DNA of 64,000 nt from Neobacillus driksii (GTDB lineage Bacteria > Bacillota > Bacilli > Bacillales > Cytobacillaceae): the NCBI RefSeq assembly GCF_013409995.1, contig NZ_JACCBX010000007.1, positions 1 to 64,000 on the forward strand, given 5' to 3'. Both the position numbers and the translations under genes were made by a program. The notes below the pieces were generated by a model. That model searched no databases. It was not told the DNA's origin and saw nothing but the letters and a program-made list of their open reading frames with translations. Shown here piece by piece: positions 31,413 to 36,845 of this stretch; positions within the stretch are counted from its first letter, which is position 1, and the number at the start of each line of letters is the position of its first letter.

Positions 31413-31606
31413 ATTGTTAAGTTTTTGCAAAATAGTTCTTTGTATCTCCAAAGTATATGGCTATTTCCTTTTTCAGGTAATATTCTAGTGATTTATGACC
31501 TGTCTATTTTTCGAATATTTTGTTAATATTTTTGATTAGAGAGACAAAATAATAATTTCAACTAGCAAGCTGCTAGAAAATCTATTAAGAGAGAGGAATT
31601 GTTACG

Positions 31607-33157
31607 TTGAAAGTATCAAATCCCATACAATGTCAAAGTGAAAAGCATCTAACGCAACTGGCATCAGTTGGTCAAATTGCCGCAGGTATTGCTCATGAAG
31701 TTCGTAATCCATTAACGGCTGTTAAAGGGTTTTTGCAATTGCTTGAGCATGATAGTAATCCTGAGTATATTAATATTGCTCAATTAGAATTGGAGAATGC
31801 ATTAACAACATTGAATGATCTTCTTCAGGTTTCTAAACCCGATCAAGAGAATGAGGAACCCCAAACGTTTCTTATAGCAGTCGAGCTAGAATCAATCTTG
31901 AATTTATTTCAAGATAAAATATATGATATTCAAATAAATACAAGTCACTATGATACAAATACACCGATATATGGTAAAAAAAATCAGTTTAAAAAGGCAT
32001 TTTTTAATCTAATTAAAAATGCATTGGAGTCAATGAATGAATCTGGTTCATTAACGATCAGGCATTTTGCTGAAGGAAATGAAGTAGTGGTATGTATTGA
32101 AGATACGGGAGTCGGAATTCCTAATGAAAAATTATCATTACTGGGTACACCGTTTTTTTCAACTAAGGACCTCGGTACGGGGATGGGATTAACCCAAGTG
32201 TTTTCTACCGTTTATCAGCATGGCGGCAGAATAAATGTCGAGAGTGAAGTGAATAAAGGAACAAAATTTACCTTAAGAATACCTGTTCGTAATGACTCGA
32301 AAAATAGAGGTGTAAAACAGTTGAATTTGACCTATGAAGAAACGTTATCCATCAAGGAATATTTCTTAGCAAATAAGGATATTTTTGAGAATAGACTACT
32401 TGAAGAAGCCATAAATGTGAAAAATAAGATTGATGAGATACATAGAATTGGAAATATTAATCTATTAAGTAACGCACATAGACTCGTGTTATTGATCGTA
32501 GAGGAACGTGAACATGAATTAATTTCTTTTGCAAAACAGGAAGGGATAGCTTGGGCAAAATACTCATTAACCATTGCATTTAAATTGGAATGGATACAAG
32601 CGATCAGAAGAACTGTGTGGGATTTTCTCTATAATTTTGATATCAATAAAAATAATGATCATTCTTCAGAGTTTTATTTTACATTGGAAAAAAACATCAA
32701 TCGTCAATTTGACCAATTTTTGAATTCATTTTTTATCCAATATAGCCGGTACAAAGATGAATTGTTGGATGCACAGAGAAAACTTTTGGAGAATTTGTCT
32801 GTACCCATTATTCCCATCTCACGTGATATCAGTATCCTGCCGTTGATTGGGGCAATTGATAGTTTTAGAGCAAGTACCATTGAAGATAAATTGATCACGG
32901 AAATTGGTAACTCACATATTCATACGTTAATATTAGATCTTTCCGGTGCAGCAGTGATGGAGATTGAAGTCATTCAGCATCTTATCCGGATTATTAATGG
33001 TGTCTCGATGATGGGGTGTAAGACGGTTATAACTGGACTTCGGCCAGAAATTGTTAAGCTTGTTATTAACTCGGGGGTTACTTTTGAGCACGTCGCCGAG
33101 TTAAAGGGGACCTTACAGGTGGCGCTATCTGATTACCTAGGGGAACATAGGCTCTAA
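31607..33157 (+). CDS. histidine kinase fused to an RsbR-type STAS co-antagonist
   Basis: A 516-residue cytoplasmic protein joining two systems. Residues about 15-232 are a HisKA-HATPase kinase: His30 in IAHEVRNPL, N-box NLIKNALESM, G1 EDTGVGIP, G2 GTGMGL, closest to KinA/KinB-type sporulation kinases. Residues about 250-395 resemble the RsbRD N-terminal domain of stressosome RsbR paralogues. Residues about 400-512 are a STAS domain. There, the usual ...MDTEV phospho-threonine position reads MEIEV (Thr replaced by Ile), while the second Thr (VITGLRPE) remains. No sensor or transmembrane domain. TTG start after GAGAGG; no response regulator nearby. Confidence 0.85.
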   Translation: MKVSNPIQCQSEKHLTQLASVGQIAAGIAHEVRNPLTAVKGFLQLLEHDSNPEYINIAQLELENALTTLNDLLQVSKPDQENEEPQTFLIAVELESILNLFQDKIYDIQINTSHYDTNTPIYGKKNQFKKAFFNLIKNALESMNESGSLTIRHFAEGNEVVVCIEDTGVGIPNEKLSLLGTPFFSTKDLGTGMGLTQVFSTVYQHGGRINVESEVNKGTKFTLRIPVRNDSKNRGVKQLNLTYEETLSIKEYFLANKDIFENRLLEEAINVKNKIDEIHRIGNINLLSNAHRLVLLIVEEREHELISFAKQEGIAWAKYSLTIAFKLEWIQAIRRTVWDFLYNFDINKNNDHSSEFYFTLEKNINRQFDQFLNSFFIQYSRYKDELLDAQRKLLENLSVPIIPISRDISILPLIGAIDSFRASTIEDKLITEIGNSHIHTLILDLSGAAVMEIEVIQHLIRIINGVSMMGCKTVITGLRPEIVKLVINSGVTFEHVAELKGTLQVALSDYLGEHRL

Positions 33158-34717: not shown

Positions 34718-36466
34718 ATGTTTAGTGACAAGAGATTCCAACAATATTCCTTACGTAATGTACCAAAAGATGTCCTTTCAGGACTAATTGTCGGTGTTAT
34801 TGCCATACCACTTGGAATGGCCTTCGCAATTGCTTCAGGGGTGAAGCCGGAATATGGAATCTACACAACAATTGTTGCCGGGATTCTCATTTCTCTTTTA
34901 GGAGGATCGAAGTATCAAATTGGCGGTCCAACAGGTGCGTTCATTCCGATTCTATTTGGAATCGTTATGACATACGGGTATGAAAATCTGTTGATTGCAG
35001 GCTTTTTAGCTGGAATCATGCTGCTCTTAATGGGAATCTTTAAACTTGGATCATTGATTAAATTCATTCCAAGGCCAGTAACGATTGGATTTACAACAGG
35101 GATAGCGATCACTATTTTTACCGGACAGATTGCTAGTTTCCTAGGGTTGACGGGTATTAAGAAACATGAGGAATTTATTAATAATGTAAAAGAAATTGTT
35201 ATCAACATGAATAGTATTAACTTTTACAGCATTTTAATTGCAGTTATTTGCTTAGCTGTGATTCTTTTGACTCCTAAAATCGCTCCAAAGGTTCCTGGAC
35301 CATTAATTGGGTTAATGGTTTCAACTATAATTGCAACCTTGTTCTTTCCCAATCAGGTTGCAACAATCGGCACAGCTTATGGGGAGATTCCTAGTACATT
35401 GCCAAAGCTGCAAATACCTGATTTAAACTTTGAGATGATTATAACTCTCTTAAAACCATCGTTTGTTATTGCGATGCTCGGCGGGATTGAATCATTGCTC
35501 TCAGCGGTGGTTGCTGATGGCATGACCAATAGCAAGCATAATAGCAACAAGGAACTTATAGGGCAGGGGATTGCTAATATGATTACTCCGCTTTTTGGAG
35601 GTATTCCTGCGACAGGAGCCATTGCCAGAACAGCGACGAATATAAAAAATGGTGCCGTTTCACCGTTATCTGGTATTATACACGGGGTTGTAGTTTTACT
35701 TGTGTTACTATTTTTTGCTCCGTTTGCATCTTATATTCCGCTTGCCAGCATGGCACCAATCTTAATGGTTGTGGCATGGAATATGAGTGAACGGAAGGTA
35801 TTTGCACATATATTAAAAACAAAATCTACAGATTCGCTTGTTTTAGTGGTGACCTTTTTATTAACGGTTTTTGTGAATTTAACAACGGCAGTCGAAGTTG
35901 GTTTGATTATGGCGGCGGTATTATTCACGAAGAGAATGAGTGATTTGATGATTACCGCAAAGGCTTTACCAAACCCTATGCATAAACATGCAAAGGTCGT
36001 GTCGGAAATGGTATCAGAGTCACACGATTGTCCTCAAATCAGTATCTATAATGTAGAAGGTCCATTATTCTTTGGCGCAGCACAGACGTTTGAAACATCG
36101 ATTATGAATACGATTAACTATCGACCAAAGATTTTGTTATTACGGATGAGCAGGGTACCATTTATGGATACGACGGGTGAGGCAAATTTGGCTAGTATTG
36201 TGTCCCATTTTTCAAAAAATGGTATAGTTATTATATCGGGAATAAACGAACAGCCTAAAAATGTTTTGGTAAGTACCGGCTTATATGAAGTGATTGGTCA
36301 GGAACATTTCTTTGAACATACTGGTGACGCCATTCAATTTGCGTTATCGCAGTTAGAGCAAAATAAATGTCTCGGCTGTAAACACTTCGTATTTAAAGAA
36401 TGTAAGAGGCTTTCAGCTTCCGAAGTTTTGGATAGCAGCAAACAGAAGCTCTCGGCTACTTACTAG
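34718..36466 (+). CDS. SulP family anion transporter with STAS domain
   Basis: A 582-residue protein: SulP/SLC26 membrane domain (about 10-400, up to 14 segments) followed by a cytoplasmic STAS domain (about 430-545). The family moves sulfate, bicarbonate or dicarboxylates. After the STAS domain is a Cys-containing tail (CLGCKHFVFKEC), which could bind metal or sense redox state and is not standard for the family. ATG after AAGAAGGG. Fourteen bp separate it from the ArsR-type gene, so the two form an operon. Confidence 0.87.
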   Translation: MFSDKRFQQYSLRNVPKDVLSGLIVGVIAIPLGMAFAIASGVKPEYGIYTTIVAGILISLLGGSKYQIGGPTGAFIPILFGIVMTYGYENLLIAGFLAGIMLLLMGIFKLGSLIKFIPRPVTIGFTTGIAITIFTGQIASFLGLTGIKKHEEFINNVKEIVINMNSINFYSILIAVICLAVILLTPKIAPKVPGPLIGLMVSTIIATLFFPNQVATIGTAYGEIPSTLPKLQIPDLNFEMIITLLKPSFVIAMLGGIESLLSAVVADGMTNSKHNSNKELIGQGIANMITPLFGGIPATGAIARTATNIKNGAVSPLSGIIHGVVVLLVLLFFAPFASYIPLASMAPILMVVAWNMSERKVFAHILKTKSTDSLVLVVTFLLTVFVNLTTAVEVGLIMAAVLFTKRMSDLMITAKALPNPMHKHAKVVSEMVSESHDCPQISIYNVEGPLFFGAAQTFETSIMNTINYRPKILLLRMSRVPFMDTTGEANLASIVSHFSKNGIVIISGINEQPKNVLVSTGLYEVIGQEHFFEHTGDAIQFALSQLEQNKCLGCKHFVFKECKRLSASEVLDSSKQKLSATY

Positions 36467-36488
36467 ATAAATTAAGGAAGTGGATGGA

Positions 36489-36845
36489 TTGAATCTTGAA
36501 ATGCAGCAATTTAAAGCGGAATTCTTCAAAGCACTTGCACATCCCTTGAGGATCCGCATATTAGAGCTGTTAGCAGAAGGGGACAAAAATGTAAACGAAA
36601 TTCAAACCCTGGTTGGCAGTGAAGGTTCTGCTGTTTCACAGCAGTTAACTATACTAAGAGCAAAGAATATTGTCTCTGGTACAAAGGAAGGAAACAAAGT
36701 CATATATACGCTTAAAGACCCCATGATAGTCGAACTTTTAGCAGTAGCTCGTCAGATTTTTAATAATCATTTAGTTGACACGATTACTATATTAGATAAG
36801 TTTAGAGACGAGGATGAAGAAGTCATGACCACGCCGAAGAAATAA
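36489..36845 (+). CDS. ArsR family transcriptional regulator
   Basis: About 118 residues, winged helix with the ArsR signature FFKALAHPLRIRILELLAEG and recognition-helix region SAVSQQLTILRAKNIV. No obvious ELCV(C) metal site: cysteines are absent, so it is probably not a classic arsenic or cadmium sensor. I chose the TTG at 36489, nine bases after AAGGA. It is cotranscribed with the SulP transporter and likely regulates it. Confidence 0.85.
   Translation: MNLEMQQFKAEFFKALAHPLRIRILELLAEGDKNVNEIQTLVGSEGSAVSQQLTILRAKNIVSGTKEGNKVIYTLKDPMIVELLAVARQIFNNHLVDTITILDKFRDEDEEVMTTPKK

Follow-up and report, generated by a model that had tools for sequence, protein, structure and literature searches.

What does a histidine kinase do with an RsbR-like module behind its catalytic core, and which pathway would such a protein serve? 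The question is raised by an open reading frame (ORF) in a stretch of 64,000 nt from Neobacillus driksii (contig NZ_JACCBX010000007.1, positions 1 to 64,000), which was analyzed as a whole and is called the window here. The host is a soil relative of Bacillus, and its genome is represented by 31 contigs with a completeness of 100%. The ORF (31607..33157 on the forward strand, like all features of the gene) starts with TTG and comprises 516 codons plus the stop codon, joining a histidine kinase to an RsbR-like module (HK-RsbR fusion). An earlier note had proposed that it could couple the sporulation phosphorelay to the stressosome and the SigB pathway in one chain. We favor a different reading, to which we assign a probability of about 60%, i.e. 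that the protein is an orphan cytoplasmic Spo0F-directed (Kin-type) kinase with an RsbR-like sensory or assembly module after the core, and that a predicted free module of 278 aa tunes it.

The full-length protein is preceded by a Shine-Dalgarno (SD)-like site, AGAGAGGA (31590..31597), with a duplex energy of −10.5 kcal/mol against the 3′ end of the 16S rRNA. Pfam searches revealed a HisKA domain at residues 22-80 (31670..31846, E 7e-14), which includes the His30 codon (31694-31696), a HATPase_c domain at residues 125-228 (31979..32290, E 2e-21) with intact N and G boxes, and a STAS domain at residues 402-494 (32810..33088, E 4e-11). The middle part of the protein had no Pfam match above the cut-off. 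In the PDB, residues 18-231 were closest to KinB (E 2.5e-35) and residues 360-497 to Listeria RsbR (E about 2e-20), so that the proposed junction of a sporulation-type histidine kinase with an RsbR-like module is borne out, including the relation of the STAS region to RsbR. Of the more specific description as a kinase fused to an RsbR-like stressosome protein, the presence of HisKA, HATPase_c and STAS in one 516-aa ORF stands, while the family given for the middle domain and the phosphosites do not (see below).

We surveyed 61 genomes of the genus and found the C-terminal part in 37 of them. A single intact fused ORF of 513-542 aa was present in 24 of the 61 genomes, and therefore the fusion is not an assembly artefact. 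Of the other copies, one stops at a contig end, that of G052 is divided by a linker TAG into two neighboring ORFs, and that of G017 is broken. A scan of named genomes, a set that overlaps that of the genus, yielded 412 relatives, and the results given here rest on the best 80 loci. The kinase match was within the same ORF in 53 of these 80 loci, with a short or broken kinase part in four (L070, L082, L097, L138), and was absent from 27, one of which (Bacillus sp. JCM 19034) consists of two genes, the kinase gene lying immediately upstream. The closest named loci among these 80 belong to Neobacillus niacini and to a Bacillus metagenome-assembled genome (MAG). In a tree, the fused rows came from Bacillaceae, Paenibacillaceae, Sporolactobacillaceae and Thermoactinomycetaceae, the latter two being represented by a single row each; one frame-broken row meets other long branches, so that the tree does not establish whether fusion or fission came first. 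Two alignments were used further, i.e. A3 (the window and 56 of the 80 named loci) and A4 (the window and 36 loci, 37 proteins), and the identity across the fused proteins of A4 goes down to 55%. The gene neighborhood contained no cluster other than the family itself in more than 8 of the 80 loci. The HK-RsbR fusion is a real, conserved gene.

The kinase half looks active, judging from its intact catalytic motifs: His30, N134, N138, D166, G168, G170, G190, G192 and G194 are invariant in the 37 proteins of A4. The specificity residues, which were assigned by their distance from the histidine, are T37, A38, G41, F42, Q44 and L45 (TAGFQL). T37, G41, F42 and Q44 are invariant in the same 37 proteins, and A38 and L45 are at least 90% conserved. 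TAGFQL also constitutes the specificity residues of B. subtilis KinA and KinE, as given in Table 1 of PMC6136694, and Spo0F is therefore a likely target. The host encodes a Spo0F-like protein (C5:346825) that is 85% identical to B. subtilis Spo0F. No Spo0F-type receiver match was found within 90 kb on the window's contig (C7); the receiver matches on this contig are located at 127-157 kb, and the kinase is thus regarded as an orphan. According to PMC6136694, verified sporulation kinases are all orphans as well. The window kinase resembles KinA-KinE of Bacillus in its HisKA-HATPase core, its orphan gene, the TAGFQL residues of KinA and KinE, and in having KinB as its nearest relative in the PDB; it differs from them by the RsbR-like sensory module at its C-terminus and by the predicted nested second product.

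The C-terminal module was modeled with AlphaFold2 (residues 233-516; mean predicted local distance difference test score (pLDDT) 88, predicted template modeling score (pTM) 0.63). The top Foldseek match of the model was full-length Listeria RsbR, 7b0u (E 1.8e-9, template modeling (TM) score 0.53, 283 columns, root-mean-square deviation (rmsd) 6.7), and VIA-align aligned 260 residues of the predicted model with the same structure (Z 17.6, rmsd 5.8). In the model, a helical, non-heme-globin-like domain with a long linker helix (residues 244-400; 32336..32806) and the STAS domain stand in the order and fold of RsbR. The module thus shares with the RsbR co-antagonists (Listeria RsbR 7b0u, B. subtilis RsbRA-RD) the succession of helical N-domain, linker helix and STAS, the full-length predicted fold and the sequence match of the STAS domain. 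In contrast to these proteins, it is fused to a kinase, its N-domain is unrecognizable by sequence, Thr is missing at both phosphosites, and RsbS and RsbT were not detected in the host.

For the middle domain, VIA-align gave Z values of 14.1 to 3pmd and 13.4 to 3pmc, two structures whose titles name the B. anthracis sporulation inhibitors pXO1-118 and pXO2-61. Helical bundles without kinship can approach such values, and for helical domains they are suggestive, but no proof. Among the 50 VIA-align matches listed, only RsbR and 3pmd/3pmc concerned the middle domain, by which other families are not excluded. The earlier note had identified this domain as RsbRD-N. The window protein and, at E values up to 1, all 19 members of alignment A1 (the window's part included) were without a match to PF14361 or PF08678, and a profile comparison (hhalign) with three RsbRA-type N-domains yielded a probability of 0.2%. 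An assignment to RsbRD-N by sequence was therefore rejected, and a structural likeness of the model remains. The C-terminal half is RsbR-like by its modeled fold, which is also the sole link of the middle domain to RsbR.

In the linker between the two halves, an internal SD-like site, AGAGGTG (32306..32312), precedes the TTG codon of Leu239 (32321..32323). Its energy of −9.7 kcal/mol is close to the −10.5 kcal/mol of the gene's own start, and it was the strongest among 31 in-frame NTG codons scored. We compared codon 239 in 49 sequences, i.e. the window and 48 of the 53 fused named loci. Residue 239 is Leu in 40 of them, and the codon is TTG in 39 of these 40; for the 57 well-filled Leu columns compared, the second-highest TTG share was 46% and the median 16%. 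An SD-like purine run stands before codon 239 at the usual spacing. The mean SD duplex energy of the 39 TTG genes was −10.24 kcal/mol, versus −8.71 ± 0.40 kcal/mol for synonymous shuffles, none of which (0/200) was as low. In 26 of the 39 genes, no rival in-frame NTG had an equally strong site. The RNA structure at the internal site of the window was not strongly folded and showed nothing special (z +0.9). At column 239, 21 of 30 stand-alone paralogues have Met, 8 have Leu or Val, which could be TTG or GTG starts, and one has a gap; the mechanically called ORF begins exactly at this column in 11 of the 30. The two-gene versions (L028, L123) also separate here. From these comparisons, a start codon and a ribosome-binding site appear to be kept at codon 239 beyond coding need. 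We predict that the gene makes a second product, residues 239-516 (278 aa plus stop; 32321..33157), which would start where the stand-alone paralogues start.

From the anatomy, the conservation and the genome content, we infer the following candidate mechanism. The RsbR-like module (non-heme-globin-like domain, linker helix and STAS) sits after the catalytic core instead of before it, and a kinase dimer would carry two such modules at its C-terminal ends. The module may sense a ligand or stress, and contacts within the dimer would set the balance of autokinase and phosphatase activity toward Spo0F. Two proteins would be made from the gene, the complete kinase and a free RsbR-like module of 278 aa, and the two would co-assemble; by mixing with the fused copies, the free module could tune the signal by dilution or competition, similar to what has been proposed for BA2291.

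Two known systems offer parallels. The short form of CheA is a nested-gene product from an in-frame internal start, and it is likewise an N-terminally truncated second product encoded inside a histidine kinase gene; the free product predicted for the window gene, by contrast, is the sensory/STAS module and not a kinase. The sensor of BA2291 is located at the N-terminus, and the free relatives pXO1-118 and SkiA/pXO2-61 may resemble the middle domain of the window protein, judging from its predicted fold (Z 14.1 and 13.4). Free sensor domains have been proposed to titrate the signal from BA2291 and to turn the kinase into a phosphatase (PMC5862856), and the notion that a Spo0F kinase is tuned by a free sensor domain would apply to both cases. 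As differences, no sequence similarity to the middle domain of the window protein was detected, a STAS domain follows in the window protein, and the free copy would be encoded by the kinase gene itself.

The phosphosites of RsbRA are Thr171 and Thr205 (PMC3944199). The earlier note had assumed Ile at the first equivalent position and a kept Thr at the second. The alignment corrects this to Ser419 for T171 (32861..32863) and Ile453 for T205 (32963..32965), so that neither is Thr; the spacing of 34 residues is also that of the Thr pair in RsbRA-like proteins (172-173 and 206-207 in two proteins). Both sites are variable in the fused branch, with 14 residue types at the first and 13 at the second, and Thr was found at each of them in only 2 of 37 fused proteins. 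D418, D444 and S446 near the phosphosites are invariant in these 37 proteins. Among the stand-alone paralogues, none of 20 named rows (A3) and none of 10 genus rows has Thr at either site. As these paralogues occur in genomes with RsbS and RsbT, the missing Thr decides little, and its use as a mark that separates the fusion from stressosome proteins was dropped. In most rows of the genus, the stand-alone paralogues have Glu at the second RsbT site.

A second fusion, which lies directly behind an RsbT-like gene, was found in G020 and G030. Twenty further regions were not random, but were picked from RsbT-like and C-terminal matches that were expected to be of this type (type II), and the pair of an RsbT-like gene and HK-RsbR was present in all 20, i.e. 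at 22 loci overall (L042:1765-3757, L043, L165-L184). Nineteen of the 20 regions hold one HK-RsbR ORF; the remaining one (L165:1117-2656, G065) has a broken kinase half in two ORFs and an RsbR-like half in a single ORF. In L171 the mechanical ORFs of the pair are 276 bases apart. Many proteins of this sister branch have about 100 extra N-terminal residues, which had no Pfam match in the one type-II protein searched (L178). As specificity residues, the proteins of this branch have T, A/T/S, G, F, Q (H in 2) and L.

All 21 sister-branch proteins have Thr at the first phosphosite; at the second, 20 have Thr and one has Ser, so that the pair is complete in 20 of 21, compared with 2 of 37 at each site in the window's branch. 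In 17 of 19 newly fetched proteins, an ATG lies behind an SD-like site (GGAGG or near) at the position of the nested start, and a TTG is found in the other two. The SD energy of these 17 was −10.94 kcal/mol, versus −8.54 ± 0.49 kcal/mol in the shuffles, with 0 of 300 as low. As RsbS is lacking in 18 of the 22 sister-branch genomes, this branch does not represent a classical stressosome either. The arrangement suggests, as judged from gene order and residues, that a Ser/Thr switch kinase acts on a histidine kinase, i.e. the same module would probably also be switched by Thr phosphorylation from the RsbT-like kinase encoded upstream, an input that the window protein would lack. Shared ancestry may partly explain why the RsbT-linked branch has retained the Thr pair. 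Two arrangements near such pairs were also seen: a further stand-alone RsbR-like ORF lies directly behind the pair at three loci (L172:3102-3947, L173:3156-4007, L183:2844-3902), and in Neobacillus sp. PS3-12 (L075:4894-7170) the RsbT and HK-RsbR pair adjoins a window-type fusion, where the STAS end is broken by a frame change.

To what extent is the window protein connected with a stressosome? Five STAS proteins above the Pfam cut-off are encoded in the host, of which the four other than the fusion were read as two SulP-type transporters and two small proteins adjoining sigma-factor genes. RsbS had no match in the host except for the fusion protein's own STAS domain, and RsbT had none at E 0.001. 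RsbS-type and RsbT matches (each with E below 1e-50) were found in the same 15 of the 61 genus genomes, which do not include the host. The SigB locus of the host (L063:1913-9413) comprises rsbV, rsbW, sigB, a REC-PP2C gene, a Dps-like gene, a CHASE3-HAMP-GAF hybrid kinase and CheR; rsbV, rsbW and Dps were named by eye. This is the RsbK/RsbY/RsbM kind of SigB control, as described in PMC7522486 and PMC4574943. The locus has the make-up of RsbK-RsbY-RsbM of Bacillus cereus, in which a histidine kinase also has a stress-sensing job (PMC7522486). In contrast to the fusion, the RsbK-like protein of the host is a CHASE3-HAMP-GAF-HK-REC hybrid without a STAS match and is encoded at a separate locus. 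Membership of the window protein in a stressosome of this host was therefore rejected, as neither RsbS nor RsbT was found.

For comparison, we surveyed 193 genomes of the family, in which the classes (fused, stand-alone, RsbS) were assigned by hand from match tables that do not list weaker matches. RsbS was present in 116 of them. The stand-alone paralogue was found in 105 genomes, a count that leaves out ORFs with weaker matches, e.g. those behind RsbT pairs, and RsbS occurred alongside it in 103. In L045, L046, L048 and L049 the stand-alone paralogue lies behind rsbS-rsbT-rsbU-rsbX-like genes, and this gene order, together with the co-occurrence, indicates that the stand-alone form behaves as a stressosome component would. 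The fused gene, with cut and split copies counted beside intact ones, was found in 29 family genomes; 6 of these have RsbS and 23 have none (the open frame of the match in G139 was not seen), compared with 110 of the 164 other genomes with RsbS. Within the genus, RsbS was found in 5 of 26 fusion genomes (cut and split copies counted) versus 10 of 35 others (p 0.55 in a Fisher test, which ignores shared ancestry). We claim on this basis that the fused form does not need a stressosome, in the limited sense that it is independent of RsbS.

Several observations weigh against the reading as a Spo0F-directed kinase with a nested module. PAS domains are commoner in verified sporulation kinases than in other kinases (PMC6136694), and the Pfam search found no PAS match in the window protein, which has nothing before HisKA and differs in this respect from KinA-KinE. 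The best NCBIfam scores were for AtoS and then KinD (25 of 83 matches listed), and none of these 25 met an equivalog cut-off. The full-length model had a pTM of 0.43 and was weak around the DHp helices, and it was not used for the domain arrangement. Apart from the hhalign result, the middle domain matched no PDB sequence below E 1 and one chain at E 1.1. As for the nested start, the shuffle mean of −8.71 kcal/mol shows that a fair SD-like site already follows from the amino acid sequence of the linker, and another in-frame NTG with an SD-like site at least as strong exists in 13 of the 39 genes. In 9 of the 49 sequences, codon 239 does not encode Leu, i.e. it is GTT in six (five Paenibacillus and one Brevibacillus MAG) and ATA, CCT and GTG in one each. 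The six GTT sequences have a AAAGAGGTG-like run, followed two codons on by CTG, TTG or GTG, and the case for a nested start is weak there.

Could the kinase serve another response regulator, e.g. an NtrC/AtoC-type or single-domain regulator, instead of Spo0F? AtoS as the best NCBIfam match among the 25 listed, the 67 receiver-type matches to Spo0F in the host genome (E up to 0.001) and the degeneracy of the specificity residues, which PMC6136694 itself points out, are in favor of this possibility, and the degeneracy also weakens our own assignment of the target. We consider it unlikely, albeit worth keeping in mind, because the specificity residues equal those of KinA and KinE, are invariant or nearly so in A4, and the gene has an orphan position. 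A different explanation of the internal SD/TTG element, i.e. that it is a ribosome pause site between domains or the relic of an older two-gene arrangement, seems rather improbable to us. SD-like sequences can slow ribosomes, and two-gene versions do exist (L028, L123). However, the start codon is held against synonymous change (39 of 40 TTG), its distance from the SD-like site fits a start, ATG or TTG follows the site in all 19 sister-branch proteins, and the window site is not strongly folded; a relic would moreover have decayed over a divergence as large as that within A4.

The coupling idea, in which the RsbR part would be built into a shell of RsbS and RsbT and would connect SigB control with Spo0F, can draw on the RsbR-like predicted fold, on the 5 of 26 fusion genomes of the genus that have RsbS as well as RsbT, and on the sister branch with its Thr pair and upstream RsbT; the missing Thr does not exclude it, as Thr-less stand-alone paralogues occur with RsbS in nearly all cases. 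Against it stand the failure to detect RsbS and RsbT in the host, the RsbK/RsbY-type SigB locus and the 23 of 29 fused family genomes that lack RsbS. For the window protein, we regard the idea as very improbable and the coupling in one chain as unsupported; it fits the sister branch better, with its RsbT-like gene and kept Thr pair, albeit again with most of the genomes (18 of 22) devoid of RsbS. We give next to no credence to an assembly or annotation fusion of two genes, for which L028 and L123 could be quoted, in view of the single ORF in 24 genus genomes and the same-ORF kinase in 53 of the 80 named loci (overlapping sets), with which the corresponding doubt of the earlier note falls.

The preferred reading of the window gene can be extended tentatively, at somewhat less than even odds, to a signaling module of the Bacillales. 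A module related to a stressosome sensor would have been built into a Spo0F-type kinase and would also be made as a free copy by an internal start. In one branch, an RsbT-type kinase would phosphorylate two STAS threonines and thereby control the kinase output, mostly in genomes without RsbS, while the window's branch would be without that input and would have kept the nested module. If true, this would be a direct junction of partner switching and the two-component phosphorelay. The lack of RsbS in 23 of 29 fused genomes, compared with its presence in 103 of 105 genomes with the stand-alone form, suggests that a module of the RsbR type, when joined to a sporulation-type kinase, can function without a stressosome. 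The nested start provides a concrete and inexpensive way of testing whether free copies of their own sensors tune sporulation kinases, and the RsbT-linked branch makes it testable whether Ser/Thr partner-switch kinases act on histidine kinases. The parts are known already, and their combination appears to be new: a literature search by titles and the beginnings of abstracts, which covered few subscription papers, yielded no description of such a fusion, and it was not mentioned in the places found in PMC12826061 and PMC8256260.

Two minor observations concern other STAS proteins. Downstream of the fusion, the window encodes what we take to be a SulP-type transporter with a C-terminal STAS domain, followed by a small, presumably ArsR-like regulator (34718-36845). 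On a plasmid of Priestia megaterium (NZ_CP085430.1, L185:5025-6905), two stand-alone RsbR-like STAS proteins are encoded side by side near a fatty acid desaturase gene, and Priestia accounts for 18 of the 20 best listed plasmid records with a stand-alone RsbR-like match.

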